DNA of 34,025 nucleotides from a virus: positions 1 through 34,025 of IMG/VR virus record IMGVR_UViG_3300034103_000777; one strand, written 5' to 3'. The notes below the pieces were generated by a model that worked only from the letters and a program-made list of their open reading frames with translations, had not been told where the DNA came from and did no database searches. Each line of letters starts with the position of its first letter. Position 1 is the stretch's first letter. Below, piece by piece: positions 6,933 to 14,600 of this stretch. The position numbers and the translations under genes are program-made.

Positions 6933-8465
6933 TTAGTGCTTCAACAGTAGGGTTGATATAATGTTAGGATCGTTAGCACTTATATCACCCTCTCCCGGAG
7001 CTACAATCACATTGTACTTCATCCCTGCAGGGATAGACTTACGCTTAGCCATGTATTCATTGTAATCTAAGATTGAGTTAGCACTCAACCCATATTCTTT
7101 AGCCAATCTTTGCTTTAGTTCAGGTAACTTGTCAGGTTGTACTTGCCACTGGCCTTGTTCCCCCTTAACCAAGTTCTTCTTTTCGTCCTTAACTAGCAAA
7201 TCTTGGAATATTTCGTCTGGTACAATACGACTGTTCTTAGTTGTATCTAAGTTGGCATCACTTGCTTTAACTTGTTTCTCTTGACTTGTGTGAGCACCCT
7301 CACTCCAGTTGATAATGAAGTTAGGTGGTTTCTGTGCAAGTGCTGCACCAGCCATCTTTGTGTAAGCATAGAACTTAACATCCGGATGCTTTGCAGCCAT
7401 CTTCAATGCCATGTCTAAGTATTCTGGACTAAAGAAGTCACCGGCGTCATGCCAACGAATCGTAGTTTCCCAACCATTAGGGAATTTCTTGTCGCCTTTT
7501 TTACCAGCAACTGATTCTTTTGTAATCTCAGCACTTAGTTGATTGAAGAAACCATCAGGATCATTCAATAGATATGTCAAGATGCGACCATCACTTTGCC
7601 ATGGACCTTGAAACTGAACTTTACCGCCCTTCATAGCGAAGCAATCAACTTTACATGAACCAGCACCAGGACATGTGTTTACGATGATTAGGTTGTTAGT
7701 TTGTTCGTCTAATGCGATACCAGTCAATGCGGCAAAACCAACGTTAAAGAACTGTTCAAACTCACCGTTTGAATGCTTCATCTTTTCGTTTTGCTTTAAT
7801 AAAGCTTTAGGACGAATTGCTAATGTTTTCTTAACTGCTTCTTCATCGTATGTCTTACCATCAGGACTCAAGTATGTGATAACACTTGAACGATGGATAT
7901 AGGGCATTTTGTATCTGTCACTCTTAGTTTTACCAGACACATACTTCTCATTACCTTTTTTATCAGTCTTGACATTACCTGCTTTGTCTACATCAGGAGT
8001 ACCGGCGATACGATTCATGTAGTCTTGAAACTCTTGTCCACCAAACTCACGACTTTGTGCTGGTAGTTTAGTTGCTTCACCCAAGCCAGATAGTTTACGA
8101 ATTCTATTCAAGTGGTCTTCACTTTCTGACACACCTGTTGGATCACCGCTGATTTCTTTTCGGCGACCCTTTGGATTCCAATTAACACCGAATGCTTTAT
8201 CTAGTCTACCTGTTACTGATTTATCTAGTCTATCAGGATCTTGTTGAAATTCTCTTCCCTGTGATCCAGGATAATCAGGATAGTCACTATCGCTAGCGTG
8301 CCTTAGTCCGGTTGATGTTCGTTCAACGGAACCTTCATCTACTTCTTCTTCACCGGGCATGTCACCAGCTTTAGCAACGAATTGTTGAGGTGTCATAATC
8401 TGTATACCCTCTGGTGCTCCGGGCAATTGTGGCTCTGTGCCTTCTAATAAATGTTGAATTCTCAT
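6933..8465 (-). CDS. GP88-like phage protein with a putative capsid-targeting leader
   Basis: This 510-residue protein starts at the ATG at 8463-8465. The open frame continues upstream only as antisense to uvsE. The C-terminal half resembles the mycobacteriophage Gene 88 family: NTCPGAGSCKVDCFAMKGG (Cys265, 271, 275) and IRWHDAGDFFSPEYL, then FYAYTK. The function of that family is unknown. The N-terminus MRIQHLLEG looks like a T4-type capsid-targeting sequence with a prohead-protease site (LLE/G at 6-9). A second site, LGE/A, is at 128-131, and the region between is polar and low in complexity. It is a lone minus-strand gene whose stop directly abuts the epimerase stop, and a late-type ATAAATA box lies about 50 bases upstream. 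Confidence 0.7.
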   Translation of the reverse strand: MRIQHLLEGTEPQLPGAPEGIQIMTPQQFVAKAGDMPGEEEVDEGSVERTSTGLRHASDSDYPDYPGSQGREFQQDPDRLDKSVTGRLDKAFGVNWNPKGRRKEISGDPTGVSESEDHLNRIRKLSGLGEATKLPAQSREFGGQEFQDYMNRIAGTPDVDKAGNVKTDKKGNEKYVSGKTKSDRYKMPYIHRSSVITYLSPDGKTYDEEAVKKTLAIRPKALLKQNEKMKHSNGEFEQFFNVGFAALTGIALDEQTNNLIIVNTCPGAGSCKVDCFAMKGGKVQFQGPWQSDGRILTYLLNDPDGFFNQLSAEITKESVAGKKGDKKFPNGWETTIRWHDAGDFFSPEYLDMALKMAAKHPDVKFYAYTKMAGAALAQKPPNFIINWSEGAHTSQEKQVKASDANLDTTKNSRIVPDEIFQDLLVKDEKKNLVKGEQGQWQVQPDKLPELKQRLAKEYGLSANSILDYNEYMAKRKSIPAGMKYNVIVAPGEGDISANDPNIISTLLLKH

Positions 8466-8482
8466 GTTTATTTCCGTAAAAT

Positions 8483-8511
8483 TTGACAATAAATACGATT
8501 TATTGTACACT
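8483..8511 (+). promoter_or_regulatory. Promoter of uvsE
   Basis: TTGACA (8483-8488), a 17-bp spacer and TACACT (8506-8511) form a sigma70-type promoter. It shares the TTGACAATAAAT start of the family promoters found elsewhere in the window. It lacks the TTTGGG spacer core. Confidence 0.65.
8486..8506. repeat. Perfect 9-bp inverted repeat inside the uvsE promoter
   Basis: ACAATAAAT and ATTTATTGT flank the three bases ACG, giving a perfect dyad that fills the space between the -35 and -10 boxes. It also lies in the region shared with the divergent GP88-like gene. An operator is possible. It cannot be separated from the promoter sequence itself by inspection. Confidence 0.5.
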
Positions 8512-8538
8512 ATGTAATATTTATCACTCTGGACTATT

Positions 8539-9564
8539 ATGCACTCTTTTGACATTACCACTAAACGTATCGGCTTTGCTTGCAAATGGGCTGAAATCAA
8601 CAAAAAAGGCGAGATTGCTAGCACCGAGGGTCTTAATACAGGTGGTACTACATTAGCATGGGCTAACAGAAACAAACGTTCACTAGTAGAAGAAAAAATC
8701 ATTGACGTTGCAAAAACCAATATTCTTAATACACATGCATTAGTTAAAAAGGTAGCTACTCTACCCGAACCACTACGTATGTTGCGTATCACTAGCGACA
8801 TGTTTAGCTTCTACACCCATGATGAATACAAAGACTTTTGGCATCAACCTGACATTCAATCTAGTCTTGAACGTTGGATGGCACCCATCGGCGAGACTGC
8901 ACGACAAAACAATGTTCGTTTGTCGTTTCACCCTGACCAATTCGTAGTTCTTGCGAGTGATCGTCCTGAGGTAGTAAATAAGAGTATTGAAGAATTCGAA
9001 TATCATGCTGACATGGCTAGATTTATGGGTTACGGTAAAACTTTTCAGGACATGAAAATCAACGTTCACATTAGTGGTCGTCAAGGTCCTGAAGGTATCC
9101 GCAAAGCATATCAACGTCTTAGCCCCGAAGCACGAAACACTATCACCATCGAGAACGAAGAAAATGCCTGGGGACTTGACGATTGCCTTACTCTATCTGA
9201 TCTGCTTCCAATTGTATTGGACATTCATCACCACTGGGTCAATTCAGGAGAATACATTTCTGTATCCGACGAGCGGGTTCAACGGGTTGTTGATTCTTGG
9301 CGCCATGTTCGCCCTACTCTACATTATAGTGTTTCACGTGAAGATATCCTTGTTGGTCATTGCCCTGATACTTTACCTTGCCGCGAGAGCCTGATTGCTA
9401 ATGGTAGCAACAAGCAAAAGCTCCGCGCACATTCTGACTACTACTGGAATCATGCAGTAAATAAGTGGGCTATGACTTTCAATGATAAATTCGATATGAT
9501 GTGCGAGTCAAAGGCTAAGAACTTGGCTAGCTTCAAACTATATGAGGAATATGTAAATGTTTGA
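8539..9564 (+). CDS. uvsE: UV damage endonuclease UvsE/UVDE
   Basis: This 341-residue TIM-barrel endonuclease nicks DNA 5' to UV photoproducts and abasic sites, starting an alternative excision repair. Family motifs with metal-binding residues are RITSDMFSFYTH, RLSFHPDQFVVLAS, INVHISGR, ITIENEEN, VLDIHHHW and a late AHSDY. The length is typical. It has its own promoter, diverges from the GP88-like gene, and overlaps the next gene by eight bases. Phages use it to repair their own sunlight-damaged DNA, which hints at an aquatic or surface habitat (inference). Confidence 0.92.
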   Translation: MHSFDITTKRIGFACKWAEINKKGEIASTEGLNTGGTTLAWANRNKRSLVEEKIIDVAKTNILNTHALVKKVATLPEPLRMLRITSDMFSFYTHDEYKDFWHQPDIQSSLERWMAPIGETARQNNVRLSFHPDQFVVLASDRPEVVNKSIEEFEYHADMARFMGYGKTFQDMKINVHISGRQGPEGIRKAYQRLSPEARNTITIENEENAWGLDDCLTLSDLLPIVLDIHHHWVNSGEYISVSDERVQRVVDSWRHVRPTLHYSVSREDILVGHCPDTLPCRESLIANGSNKQKLRAHSDYYWNHAVNKWAMTFNDKFDMMCESKAKNLASFKLYEEYVNV

Positions 9565-10038: not shown

Positions 10039-10067
10039 TTGACAATAAACCACTTTGGGTGTATAAT
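10039..10067 (+). promoter_or_regulatory. Family promoter of the helicase/methyltransferase cassette
   Basis: TTGACA (10039-10044), 17 bp, TATAAT (10062-10067). The spacer carries ACTTTGGGT and the bases after TATAAT are ACATAGTATTGA, both shared with the other family promoters. Start-site to ATG distance is about 20 bases. Confidence 0.8.
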
Positions 10068-10095: not shown

Positions 10096-12297
10096 ATGAA
10101 GTACTATACGGCTGTTTACATTTATACTACTAAATTAAATGAAAAAGTTTTTCGAGCAAAAGTAGGATCAGCTAGACGCAAGGCAAAGTCTGCGTTTGAT
10201 GCGGCCGAGGCTAGAATTAAAGAACAACTAACAGCGGCTAACAGTGCCGACACTTATCAAATTCTACATGTAGAAGATGTATCCGACATTTGTGAGACAG
10301 GTGAAAAACACCAAAGCTTGAGTAATCTAAGACAATTAGAACAAAACTTACTACACGCACGTATGAAAAGAATGGGTATGTGGGTACCCAGTGATAATAA
10401 TTCTAGTGAGTGGTTCTTTGACCCTACACAACAATCTGTTAATAATGTAACAGATGAAGTTAAAAGAATTATAAATGAGCGCCGATATGGTGTTTCGGCA
10501 TTGTGTTCATTCCCTGCATTTGATTATCAACAAAAAATTGTAGATTGGGCTGTAGACAGGCTTACATCAAAGAGTGACCTGTTGATTAATGCAATTATGC
10601 GAGCCGGCAAATGTTTTATTTCGTATGAAATCGCAAGGGCTACTAAAGCAAAATCAATATTGATTGTTACTGCTAAGGTTGGGGTGACTGATAGCTGGTC
10701 AGAACTTTTGCCCGGTGGAAAAAAAAGTCATATTAATTATGACAAGTGGGAATTTCATAATTATAAGAAAACAAAAAAACTGATTTACAATAATGCAGAA
10801 GTTAATGTCACTATTGTAAGTTTGCAATTTATCAATAAGCACTTTGACAAACCAAACGAACTGTTGAAGCAAATCTTTGCCCAATATTGGGATATTGTGT
10901 TCTTTGATGAACAGCATTATGCTACACTAACTGACAATACACAACGGTTGTGGAATACATTGAAGTTTGGTAAGAAAATTGAACTGAGTGGCACTCCATA
11001 TAAAACTGTACTCAGTGGTAGGTATGATAAGGATGACATTTACAACTTTGATTATGTTGAAGAACAAATGTTGCGTAAACAAGCTATCGGTGATGTAGCT
11101 GATGCATTTAAATATCGTGCTGATATTAATTATGCAATGATTAATGTTCCTGACAAAGTTAAATCATATCTCGGTGAAGATGGTTTTACATTTCCTAAAT
11201 TGTTTGCTACTGAAGGTGAAGAATTTAAGAACGTAATGGCTGTGAATGAGTTTCTCAACTTTGCGGTAACTACATACAAAAAACCACCACAACGATTTGC
11301 ACCATTTGCTGACAAAGTTTGCCGTCATACATTATGGGTATTGCCCAACGATGTTAGCGCAATTAATGCCTTAGCAAAAATGCTGGCAGAACACCCGTTC
11401 TTTAGCAAGCGAACAATTATCAATGCTAGTGGTTTAGGAGTGAAAAATATTCAGGATGTAACGGATCAGATTCAACGTAGTGATATTGAACACGGTGCCG
11501 GTACAATTACAATTACATGCGGACGTTTCTTAGAGGGTACTAGTGTACCTGAATGGTGGAGTATTCACCAAATGAATAATGACAAGAGTGCGGCTGATTA
11601 CTTTCAAGGAAGTTTCCGTTGCAAAACTCCATGGTCAGATGGTAAAAAAGAAAGTGTTATTGTTTTTGATTATGCACCTGAACGTCTAGTAAATGTAATG
11701 TATCAACATTGCGAACAACAAAGTATTGCTGAAAATCGCCCAGTAGATAAAATTCTAGCTGAATGGTTAGCGGTCAGTGAAGTATATGATTACGTAGGTA
11801 ATGTTTGGAATATAATTGACGGTGGAACCATTTCTACACGTTTCTTATCTGATATTAATAATTATATGGATCGTGTAGGTAATGCTGTAGATATTGCCGG
11901 TATTACTGATGACATTATTCTATTACTTGCTAATAAAAAAGCTGATCCAAAAAATAAAAATGCAAATAGTCAACTCAACACTAATGATATTCTGACTGGT
12001 TCAAATAAAAAACGTTTAGGCAAAAAAACTTCTAATGCAACAACTAAGGAAGTGTCAGAAGATGAGGAGACTGTACTACGCATTAAATATGCATTACGTC
12101 AAATTTTCAAATTAATTGATGTATCTTGGGCCGATAACTTGACAATAAGTTCATTAGATGATATAATCAACTATAAAGACATTACAGTAGTAGAGGATAT
12201 TACTGGACTTGTTCCAAAAGAGTGGAACAAGATTAAACCAGCAATAAACATCATTTCAATTAACAGGGCAATTGGTCAATATAATGATTTTCAATAA
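10096..12297 (+). CDS. SF2 helicase with GIY-YIG (T5orf172-like) N-terminal domain
   Basis: This 733-residue protein starts at ATG 10096, after AAAGGAA; the open frame before it is only the promoter. Residues 1-110 resemble a T5orf172/GIY-YIG nuclease: YTAVYIYTT, then KVG in place of YIG, an AAEARI helix and SSEWFF with a candidate catalytic Glu105. From about 140 the SF2 helicase motifs follow: motif I MRAGKC (168-173, as in type III restriction enzymes), DEQH (271-274), SGTP (298-301) and a motif VI-like YFQGSFR. The C-terminal 150 residues are Lys/Asn-rich and unassigned. Its stop overlaps a methyltransferase gene. A restriction-like DNA translocase/nuclease is the leading idea. A recombination or replication helicase is the alternative. 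Confidence 0.75.
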   Translation: MKYYTAVYIYTTKLNEKVFRAKVGSARRKAKSAFDAAEARIKEQLTAANSADTYQILHVEDVSDICETGEKHQSLSNLRQLEQNLLHARMKRMGMWVPSDNNSSEWFFDPTQQSVNNVTDEVKRIINERRYGVSALCSFPAFDYQQKIVDWAVDRLTSKSDLLINAIMRAGKCFISYEIARATKAKSILIVTAKVGVTDSWSELLPGGKKSHINYDKWEFHNYKKTKKLIYNNAEVNVTIVSLQFINKHFDKPNELLKQIFAQYWDIVFFDEQHYATLTDNTQRLWNTLKFGKKIELSGTPYKTVLSGRYDKDDIYNFDYVEEQMLRKQAIGDVADAFKYRADINYAMINVPDKVKSYLGEDGFTFPKLFATEGEEFKNVMAVNEFLNFAVTTYKKPPQRFAPFADKVCRHTLWVLPNDVSAINALAKMLAEHPFFSKRTIINASGLGVKNIQDVTDQIQRSDIEHGAGTITITCGRFLEGTSVPEWWSIHQMNNDKSAADYFQGSFRCKTPWSDGKKESVIVFDYAPERLVNVMYQHCEQQSIAENRPVDKILAEWLAVSEVYDYVGNVWNIIDGGTISTRFLSDINNYMDRVGNAVDIAGITDDIILLLANKKADPKNKNANSQLNTNDILTGSNKKRLGKKTSNATTKEVSEDEETVLRIKYALRQIFKLIDVSWADNLTISSLDDIINYKDITVVEDITGLVPKEWNKIKPAINIISINRAIGQYNDFQ

Positions 12298-13462
12298 CAT
12301 TAAAAAACGTATCAATCAGATTAAACTGTATGATGCTAATAGCAACCAGACAATGTTGCCTGAGGATCAGATTCGTATTCTGATTAATCAAATCCCTAAG
12401 AAGGACCTTACTAATCCCAATACTACATATTGTGATCCACAATGTGGTACAGGATCTATACTTTTGGTTCTTGCTGATGTATTAATGAACTCTCTTGCAA
12501 AAGTAATACCCGATGAAACACAACGCCTAATACATATCTTCAGTAATCAATTATTTGGTTCCGACATTGATAATACTCAAGTAAAAGTAGCGCATTCAAA
12601 TTTGAAACGTGCTATAAACGATAACACCTTCAATATTAATATTGACCAGCACGATTGCATGGAATTACGTACTAAGTTTGATTATGTATTAAGCAACTTG
12701 GATTATTCTACTATCAATCGATTTGTACCATTATGGAGGAAACAATGTAAATTGATGATTGTGACCGGTCGTGCTAATAAAAACTCTTATACAGAAAATA
12801 AGATACATGAATTAACATCATATAGGTATCTAGCATTGACCGGATCATTTACACCACAGTGCATGATGGTATTTGAACCTGTTAAAAATAATAAACTAGT
12901 CACTATTTCAAATGACGAGATTAGCTTAACTGTCGATAATCCACCGTTTTTACCAAACAATGATTTGATTCAATATCAATATGCACTCGAAGTGTTGAGT
13001 CAAAAATTTAAAGGGTATGATGCTAAATATGGATCATATTATATAAACAATAAAGCGGTCATTAACAATCCGGGTAAAGTTCCCTTAATCTTTCAAGTTG
13101 GTAGAGAAGGTGATGATTATCGGAAAGTTGTGTACGTGAGTAAAAGTATCATTACTCCTTCTGAAGGGGTAGGAGAACATAAAATTGTTATTAGTAAAAA
13201 CGGCGGCCGCAATCACCAGAGCCCAGTAAAATATGCTAGCCCAAAATTTGGTACAGGACACAATTCGTTATGGATTAAAATGGAAGACCCAAATGAAGCT
13301 GAACGTTTTATTAAGTATTGGAATACTGAACCAATTGTAATGTTGAGTAGGGCATTGAGTGCAACATCACCTGCTAATGGAGTTGCTTTTTGGAAACGTA
13401 TTCCTTCAATAAATAATTATAAGAAAGTTAAAGAAATTTATGACAAATATTACAAATCCTAA
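12284..13462 (+). CDS. Class I DNA methyltransferase-like protein with altered NPPY motif
   Basis: This 392-residue protein starts at ATG 12284, inside the helicase 3' end (14-base overlap). Residues 50-61 (CDPQCGTGSILL) are the SAM loop of gamma-type N6-adenine methyltransferases, and FGSDIDNTQVKVA (91-103) is the next strand. Where NPPY is expected, FDYVLSNLDYST gives NLDY (138-141). Both prolines are lost, so activity is uncertain. The C-terminal third (KIVISKNGGRN..., ending SRALSATSPANGVAFWKRIPSI) looks like a target-recognition domain of Eco57I-type enzymes. It may specify the sequence for the helicase, methylate poorly, or act as a reader. Confidence 0.7.
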   Translation: MIFNNIKKRINQIKLYDANSNQTMLPEDQIRILINQIPKKDLTNPNTTYCDPQCGTGSILLVLADVLMNSLAKVIPDETQRLIHIFSNQLFGSDIDNTQVKVAHSNLKRAINDNTFNINIDQHDCMELRTKFDYVLSNLDYSTINRFVPLWRKQCKLMIVTGRANKNSYTENKIHELTSYRYLALTGSFTPQCMMVFEPVKNNKLVTISNDEISLTVDNPPFLPNNDLIQYQYALEVLSQKFKGYDAKYGSYYINNKAVINNPGKVPLIFQVGREGDDYRKVVYVSKSIITPSEGVGEHKIVISKNGGRNHQSPVKYASPKFGTGHNSLWIKMEDPNEAERFIKYWNTEPIVMLSRALSATSPANGVAFWKRIPSINNYKKVKEIYDKYYKS

Positions 13463-14600
13463 GGTACTAAAGTATTATAGTGATATATGCAAGGAATGGA
13501 ATTTTACTCCCACACAAAAAATTTCAACTGGTTATGAAAGTGTTGAAAAAGATTTAAAAAACCTATCTAAAGAAAAGTGGGAAAAAGCTGATGATGTTGG
13601 GAAGGCCTTAATACAACAGGAAGTATTTGATATATATCGCACTAAAAATGTGTTGCCCATCACTTACTACTCATTAGAAGGATGTGTGGAAGAATTACAA
13701 AATCTAACTAATAAAACAGTATCATTTGAAAATAAACAAATATCAACAGGAATGACAACGGGACAAAGTTTTAGTCGTTTTTGGTTTCCCAATATGCAAG
13801 ATGCAAAAACTTTTAATTATTCTGAAGTTAGTTTGCGACACAGATTTAACAATGACAAAAAATTAAAGGCAGCTATTCAAATTTGCTACAAAAACAGAGA
13901 TGAAGGTGATAAAGCCGTACTGCCACAAAGTATACGCCGGGCACTAGACCTCACCGGTGGTGGAACCATTCAAAATTTTAAACCATTAAATGCACGTGCT
14001 ATCTATGAATATATTTGTCCTAATATGTTCGGTAATGTATTAGATTTCTCTAGTGGATATGGTGGTAGAATGTTGGGATCTATGACTAGTATGATGAGAT
14101 ACAATTATACAGGTATAGACCCTAATACTAGTACATATATTGGATTAGATGCATTGGGTAGTATGCTTAATGATTTGTCAATTGGTAACGGATATCAAAT
14201 GAATCATTGCTGTAGTGAAAATTTTGATGCTCCCAAAAAATCATTTGACGCGGCTTTTAGTAGCCCACCTTACTTCAATTTAGAAATTTATAGTGATGAG
14301 GAAACTCAATGTATGAATCGGTATAACAATTTGGATGCCTGGTTTGACTTCTATGTTGAACCCACACTAACCATGTTACATAAGGTACTTGTAGACGATG
14401 CTATCTATGCTGTAAATATTGCTGATTATGATAAGGGTAAGACTAAAGTAGTTGATAGATGGATTGAGCTATCAAAGAAATTAAATTTTGAACATGTTGA
14501 TACCCTAAAAATGATGCTAAATGTGCGCCCCGGAAAGGGCAACAATAAACTACAAAATGGATTCAAGTACGAAGGTGTATATTTGTTTCGGAAAAAATAA
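13440..14600 (+). CDS. DNA methyltransferase-like protein with SPPY motif
   Basis: This 386-residue protein starts at ATG 13440, overlapping the previous gene by 23 bases. The C-terminal half has a SAM-binding loop LDFSSGYGGR (201-210), a ribose strand YTGIDPNT (223-230) and the catalytic AFSSPPYFNLEIY (272-284). The SPPY tetrapeptide is typical of N4-cytosine and some N6-adenine enzymes. The N-terminal 190 residues are unassigned and may recognise DNA or a partner. It is the third gene of the overlapping cassette and the next family promoter begins three bases after its stop. It is the most likely active modification enzyme of the set. Confidence 0.75.
   Translation: MTNITNPKVLKYYSDICKEWNFTPTQKISTGYESVEKDLKNLSKEKWEKADDVGKALIQQEVFDIYRTKNVLPITYYSLEGCVEELQNLTNKTVSFENKQISTGMTTGQSFSRFWFPNMQDAKTFNYSEVSLRHRFNNDKKLKAAIQICYKNRDEGDKAVLPQSIRRALDLTGGGTIQNFKPLNARAIYEYICPNMFGNVLDFSSGYGGRMLGSMTSMMRYNYTGIDPNTSTYIGLDALGSMLNDLSIGNGYQMNHCCSENFDAPKKSFDAAFSSPPYFNLEIYSDEETQCMNRYNNLDAWFDFYVEPTLTMLHKVLVDDAIYAVNIADYDKGKTKVVDRWIELSKKLNFEHVDTLKMMLNVRPGKGNNKLQNGFKYEGVYLFRKK

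Follow-up and report, generated by a model that had tools for sequence, protein, structure and literature searches.

A candidate split restriction-modification cassette in large T4-like phages

Restriction-modification (R-M) is usually regarded as a bacterial weapon against phages, and the question arises of what an R-M-like set of three overlapping genes may do in a virus. These genes, named here hel, mt1 and mt2, were found in a 34 kb virus record that is not classed as complete, and this whole stretch of 34,025 nucleotides is called the window. The carriers of the cassette are large T4-like viruses of freshwater bacteria. An earlier, sequence-only reading had described an R-M-like layout without a matching named type. 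This description is supported: the folds are those of the parts of Type ISP, Type I and Type IIG enzymes, and no named type combines such a gene split with an apparently dead recognition methyltransferase (MTase) and a separate SPPY MTase. The reading overlooked the degenerate motif IV of the middle protein, the internal promoter, the related cellular operon and the module exchange beside mt2. In our opinion, which is held with modest confidence, the trio is an R-M cassette of virulent T4-like phages that depends on ATP and resembles Type ISP and Type I systems, with the enzyme split between genes; the three proteins may form one enzyme or complex. No description of the trio or of the cellular operon considered below was found in the open-access literature.

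Layout of the cassette and domains of its proteins

The gene overlaps claimed earlier proved to be exact by the open reading frame coordinates on the + strand (14 bases for hel and mt1, 23 bases for mt1 and mt2), and the claimed motifs MRAGKC, DEQH, SGTP and SPPY are all present (Table 1). Neither hel nor mt2 has a specific name in Pfam, PHROGs or NCBIfam, and sequence searches of the cassette proteins against solved structures gave nothing useful.

Table 1. Features of the cassette and their positions in the window
Feature	Position	Strand	Description or basis
Promoter ahead of hel	10039..10067	+	perfect sigma-70 promoter TTGACA-N17-TATAAT; consensus match
hel	10096..12297	+	733 aa: nuclease, SF2 ATPase and helical C-terminal part (domains as predicted)
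hel, T5orf172/GIY-YIG-like nuclease domain (putative), aa 1-131	10096..10488	+	profiles of relatives, predicted fold, invariant residues
hel, SF2 helicase-like ATPase, aa 137-585	10504..11850	+	MRAGK, DEQH, SGTP; PF04851, structural match
hel, helical C-terminal region, aa 586-733	11851..12294	+	predicted structure
Internal promoter within hel, before mt1-mt2	12139..12167	+	perfect sigma-70 promoter; consensus match
mt1 (start ATG)	12284..13462	+	392 aa: gamma-class MTase fold and target-recognition domain (TRD), catalytic motif IV lost
mt1 motif I, DPQCGTG (SAM-binding)	12434..12454	+	conserved; alignment
mt1 motif IV position	12692..12706	+	SNLDY instead of NPPY; alignment, 10 lineages
mt1, C-terminal target-recognition-like domain	12953..13459	+	colinear with M.TaqI
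mt2	13440..14600	+	386 aa: SPPY DNA methyltransferase, active-looking
mt2 motif I, LDFSSGYGG	14040..14066	+	alignment
mt2 motif IV, SPPY	14262..14273	+	invariant in 12 aligned relatives

The ATPase part of hel was recognized by Pfam as ResIII (PF04851, 5.1e-8). In a fold search, it matched the ATPase of LlaBIII with a VIA Z of 17.0 over 383 residues; many SF2/SNF2 chains were tied with it at VIA Z 16-17.6, so the fold class is clear and the nearest relative is not. Helicases filled this search, which says nothing on the nuclease domain. T5orf172 (PF10544) gave no Pfam score in the window's own hel; it was found at 6.2e-4 in one phage relative and above the Pfam cut-off in several cellular ones (best 2.3e-9), and the N-terminal profiles of phage and cellular proteins correspond to each other across most of the domain (98.4%, 7e-15). 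A beta-beta-alpha-beta-alpha order was predicted for this N-terminus with a pLDDT of about 90, and the residues Y8, R40 and E105 are invariant among 40 aligned relatives, with K22-x-G24 aligned by eye. Thus, the features of a GIY-YIG (T5orf172) nuclease, namely Y, K-x-G, R and E on a beta-beta-alpha-beta fold, were all found in the predicted domain. The sequence-only reading had joined a T5orf172-like nuclease to an SF2 helicase and had named an N-terminus without a nuclease-like fold as an argument against itself; relatives, profile comparison and predicted fold bear the assignment out, since the domain is homologous to T5orf172 and the predicted fold fits. The putative GIY-YIG call for the window protein comes from relatives and the predicted fold, not from its own Pfam score, which weighs against the R-M reading. 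The C-terminal helical part, in which aa 616-652 have a pLDDT under 50, may sit where Type ISP enzymes have their coupler (PMC4872093).

The second protein, mt1, was claimed to be of the N6-adenine type with a recognition-like C-terminus. The fold part of this claim stands. Pfam gave N6_Mtase (2.2e-6) and UPF0020 (8.6e-7), and an AlphaFold model built from 13 phage sequences (pLDDT 90.6) matched M.TaqI over both the MTase domain and TRD (Z 20.8, rmsd 3.3, 308 residues). The MTase-TRD part of LlaBIII matched at Z 17.0, and CamA, MmeI and BrxX also matched. The catalytic part of the claim has to be corrected. Motif I is retained as D-x-Q-C-G-x-G, and the motif IV position in the 10 aligned lineages is occupied by SNLDY, SSVDF, SNVDF, SSIDF, GSIDF, SAIDF or SGVQF, never by [NDS]PP[YFW]. 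An amino-MTase without such a motif IV should not methylate, while binding of SAM and DNA may remain. Hence, by its alignment and model, mt1 seems to be an MTase fold without chemistry that has kept DNA recognition. Two ways of restoring a catalytic motif were rejected. A second NPPF (aa about 219-223) comes after the Rossmann fold in the predicted structure and is not conserved (SPAR, NPTY, KPTF and others), and circular permutation disagrees with the M.TaqI match, which runs through both domains in order.

The motif IV of mt2 is intact, as was claimed for the SPPY enzyme, and the SPPY is invariant among the 12 aligned relatives; in the alignment, SSPPYFNLE and LDFSSG are essentially invariant. 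This protein belongs to a separate MTase family, the relatives of which are encoded in 438 stretches of viral contigs. A PHROG DNA-methyltransferase family was matched (3.8e-5) and no Pfam family was. Judging from these motifs, mt2 is an active-looking DNA methyltransferase.

Perfect TTGACA-N17-TATAAT sites occur six times in the window against 0.04 expected, all on the + strand (starts at 10039, 12139, 14603, 20314, 20609 and 22255), and five of the six share TTGACAATAA, a pattern that suggests a phage promoter family. The sequence-only reading placed the cassette under one family promoter. The promoter before hel is indeed beyond chance, and it has 10-12 of 12 consensus matches in nine of 13 lineages, but a single promoter is probably wrong, as a perfect copy lies inside hel about 116 bases upstream of mt1; another (14603) comes just after mt2. 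An internal site with 10-12 of 12 matches was found in eight of the 13 lineages. At 11 of 12 or better, it precedes mt1 in five of them (window, L003, L005, L168 and L221) and mt2, not mt1, in L023; the chance of such a site is about 1% or less each. The sites of the window, L003 and L005 share descent, and those of L168 and L221, at another position, may also do so; with L023, these are about three independent cases.

Linkage of the genes and exchange of modules beside mt2

The three genes stay together in phages. All 22 viral contigs selected by hel alone and all 21 phage-type contigs selected by mt1 alone hold hel, mt1 and mt2 in this order, both counts being inflated by near-identical contigs that represent about 12 distinct lineages. 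The conserved co-occurrence in other phages, proposed earlier as a check, is thus found in 22 of 22 hel-selected contigs, and homologues acting as unlinked replication genes, the result said to speak against the proposal, did not appear in this set. The other 14 mt1 matches carry cellular-type genes, and 13 of them have a hel match within the stretch examined.

An alternative that we consider rather unlikely is that the cassette has two functions, mt2 being the phages' own anti-restriction MTase and hel-mt1 a nuclease complete in itself that takes no account of the mark of mt2; for instance, hel-mt1 could sense host modification in a Type IV-like manner, or its sites could be avoided by the phage. 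The divergence of hel correlates with that of mt1 (r 0.81) better than with that of mt2 (only 0.43), so that hel and mt1 co-diverge more with each other than with mt2. The co-divergence of hel and mt1 speaks for the R-M reading; the divergence of mt2 is largely independent of hel, which counts for two functions and weighs against the R-M reading. Large phages often carry orphan MTases (PMC7824862), another point for this alternative. Against it, hel and phage-type mt1 were never met without mt2 (22/22 and 21/21), mt1 and mt2 overlap and have a common internal promoter, and domain and fold searches recognized no modification-reading domain in hel or mt1.

The distribution of mt2 is wider. Among 48 distinct mt2 lineages, defined at 92% identity, hel-mt1 stands beside mt2 in 10; by another count, mt2 occurs without hel in 37 of 47 lineages. 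A DGQH protein (c2) is found in about 18 lineages, mostly accompanied by an HNH, c4 or GIY-like gene. The partners in single lineages are a PHROG-supported HNH, a Dam with a probable REase, and a 1155-aa helicase-MTase fusion with a small subunit. Both the absence of hel-mt1 from most lineages and the lack of an evident nuclease partner in about a quarter of them speak for two functions and weigh against the R-M reading. Database support as nuclease or MTase exists only for c22, c26, the L025 HNH and Dam, whereas c4, c71, c144, c76 and the L059 REase were called by eye; profile comparison did not confirm free-standing c71 and c144 as GIY-YIG proteins. In six lineages, the interval from mt2 to one and the same set of anchor genes is filled by different modules, i.e., the genomic address is the same. 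The hel, mt1, c4 and HNH clusters fall within three genes of mt2 in 83-100% of cases versus 25% for all genes; this ranking was made on loci selected through mt2, and two clusters without an assigned function come out equally high. The trio requires seven changes on the mt2 tree, at least five of which are forced; a single origin in one clade was rejected (p-AU 1e-138, on a tree with two long branches). The idea that mt2 exists solely as an obligatory component of hel-mt1 was also discarded, mt2 having its own wide distribution.

Cluster c2 (L054:6086-7276 and about 19 relatives) has a WDGQHT-like motif, DGQHR/ParB-like by eye, and repeatedly adjoins mt2 together with a small nuclease-like gene; the two are possibly another phage R-M-like module. 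In L172:428-7170, both kinds of module stand in series (c2, HNH, c4, hel, mt1, mt2), and the phage contig stretch L050:3942-9158 places three genes side by side, for the 1155-aa fusion of a helicase with an Eco57I-like MTase, for a "small" subunit and for mt2, so that cellular and phage layouts are mixed.

Exchange is also likely at a finer scale. The DNA of the hel N-terminal domain is 53-65% identical between the window and L005 versus 71-97% for the remaining cassette, so the nuclease domain was probably exchanged between close relatives. The cassette proteins of the window are 91-93% identical to those of L006 and L003/L004, with hel at only 83% in L006 because of the exchanged domain; the flanking orthologues in the same comparisons are mostly 47-78% identical, and two short genes 89-95%. 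As for the neighbourhood of the cassette in the window, a 5'-3' exonuclease gene adjoins it, and a homologue in the record of L035 (G013, 83451-84449) has one in-frame TGA, which may be a frameshift, an error or recoding. A Gp88-like open reading frame (6933-8801, - strand) overlaps the UvdE gene (8539-9564, + strand) by 263 bases on the opposite strand, and the real start of this frame probably lies deeper within it.

It is conceivable, and we advance it only tentatively, that mt2 is kept as a fixed immunity gene beside which nuclease modules are exchanged, and that an MTase fold was turned into a pure recognition subunit. The exchanged modules would be hel with the pseudo-MTase, the DGQH protein with HNH or GIY-YIG, Dam with REase, and the helicase-MTase fusion. 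If so, one modification would license a changing set of weapons in virulent T4-like phages.

T4-type Gp23 was found in five larger contigs (133-354 kb), three with the trio and two with mt2 and other modules; the three are the largest cassette contigs (207-345 kb). No tyrosine integrase was found in the 14 contigs searched, which are fragments. By their gene content, the carriers look virulent. This fits another, improbable alternative, according to which an R-M-like enzyme acts mainly against the host chromosome for nucleotide scavenging as in chloroviruses. There is viral precedent: giant viruses and chloroviruses carry an REase and an MTase of their own, which have been suggested to keep out rivals or to attack the DNA of the host, with recycling of host DNA and nucleotide scavenging in chloroviruses and exclusion of rivals in marseilleviruses (PMC7253447). 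However, the related R-M of marseilleviruses left host DNA undegraded (PMC7253447), and module exchange beside mt2 fits phage-phage competition at least as well.

Relatives in bacteria and plasmids

At least 533 hel relatives were found among candidate genome stretches from many phyla and plasmids, and the best 80 were examined. In bacteria, plasmids and prophages, the related operon consists of a small pseudo-MTase, an Eco57I-type MTase and a GIY-YIG helicase, annotated as "GIY-YIG nuclease family protein"; some copies lie near Abi, TIR or McrBC-like genes. Its hel is homologous to that of phages (22-28% identity, same T5orf172 and SF2 domains), and so is the MTase to mt1 (HMM 1e-8 to 9e-19 for most lineages; the most diverged gave 4e-6). 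The order is small-MTase-hel in most sufficiently long loci among these best 80, versus hel-mt1-mt2 in phages. In Lactobacillales, hel and MTase are fused, and the fused form is matched by PADLOC PDLC03626 (REase_MTase_IIG). No PADLOC or NCBIfam family was found to cover the whole three-gene operon (L065-L073, L074-L153, e.g., L110:352-5057), which is widespread, R-M-like and apparently unnamed.

The subunits differ in their motifs. Of 79 cellular large MTases, 78 carry NPPY or NPPF, which none of the 10 phage mt1 lineages has; motif I of these 79 is mostly DPxxK[ST]G, i.e., with Lys. The small subunit has EPxxGxG in 67 of 71 cases and NPPY in none of the 71. The cellular pair therefore appears to divide SAM-binding and catalytic motifs between two MTase subunits. 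Phage mt1 would have the pattern opposite to that of the cellular large subunit, with mt2 bringing its own catalytic domain. The cellular operon lacks mt2; in turn, no HMM match to the cellular small subunit was found in the window or trio contigs, where mt2 is the third gene.

These relatives bear on a third alternative, that hel is a replication or recombination helicase-nuclease, processing forks or Holliday junctions, with accessory methyltransferases. A role in the recombination of phages has been suggested for T5orf172 proteins (PMC7824862), and the adjoining exonuclease is in keeping with this. Nevertheless, the operon of the cellular relatives, with its Eco57I MTases, is R-M-like. The module has a patchy distribution and is swapped next to mt2, and hel is always tied to a TRD-bearing protein. 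We regard this alternative as very improbable.

Proposed action and comparison with known systems

In the R-M reading, hel would be the restriction and translocation subunit with a GIY-YIG nuclease and an SF2 motor, mt1 a catalytically dead gamma-class MTase giving sequence recognition through its TRD, and mt2 the catalytic methyltransferase marking the phage's own DNA. The mt1-mt2 pair could be made from the internal promoter without the nuclease; in Type I systems, hsdM-hsdS is expressed apart from hsdR. Where DNA lacks the mark, whether it belongs to a second phage in the same cell, to a plasmid or to the host chromosome, mt1 would bind it and hel would translocate and cut it. Methylation of the mt1 site by mt2, protection by mt2 against hel-mt1, DNA cleavage and the target DNA are all putative steps. 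The cassette may be one of several interchangeable cutting modules, possibly directed against rival or host DNA. With modular R-M in virulent-looking lineages, its nuclease modules being exchanged beside one conserved methyltransferase, direct tests of phage-phage exclusion or of host-DNA attack by phage R-M would become possible. Besides, mt1 offers a pseudo-methyltransferase that would serve recognition only, and the cassette points to a bacterial operon in more than 500 genome stretches with SAM-binding and catalytic motifs seemingly divided between two MTase subunits.

The Type ISP enzymes LlaGI and LlaBIII (PMC4872093) are arranged like the cassette, from nuclease through SF2 ATPase and gamma-MTase to TRD, but as a single polypeptide instead of three open reading frames; the succession of SF2 ATPase, gamma-MTase and TRD is found in the cassette on two chains. 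Their nuclease is Mrr, whereas that of hel is T5orf172/GIY-YIG-like, and their TRD-bearing MTase is active with NPPY, whereas all 10 mt1 lineages have a SNLDY/SSIDF-type sequence and the SPPY MTase is separate. Type I systems resemble the cassette in having restriction, recognition and methylation on separate proteins, with separate promoters for nuclease and modification. Their HsdS carries two TRDs; no such gene was found between hel and mt2, and one TRD-like domain is in mt1. Recognition in the cassette would, in contrast, come from the MTase-TRD protein, and its nuclease is GIY-YIG-like. PacII, a non-canonical Type I system of M1M2S composition, has two methylating M subunits (PMC9613975), as opposed to the one apparently dead MTase of the cassette. 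Type IIG/IIL enzymes combine nuclease, MTase and TRD in one chain, unlike the cassette, and PDLC03626 covers only the helicase part of hel. With BREX and MADS, mt1 shares partial domain matches to mad2/PglX models; hel and mt2 gave none, and a full PglX or MAD2 with partner genes was not found. The R-M systems of giant viruses and chloroviruses are likewise virus-borne sets of REase and MTase, but they are simple pairs in eukaryotic viruses, whereas the cassette belongs to bacteriophages, looks ATP-dependent and has its nuclease module exchanged.
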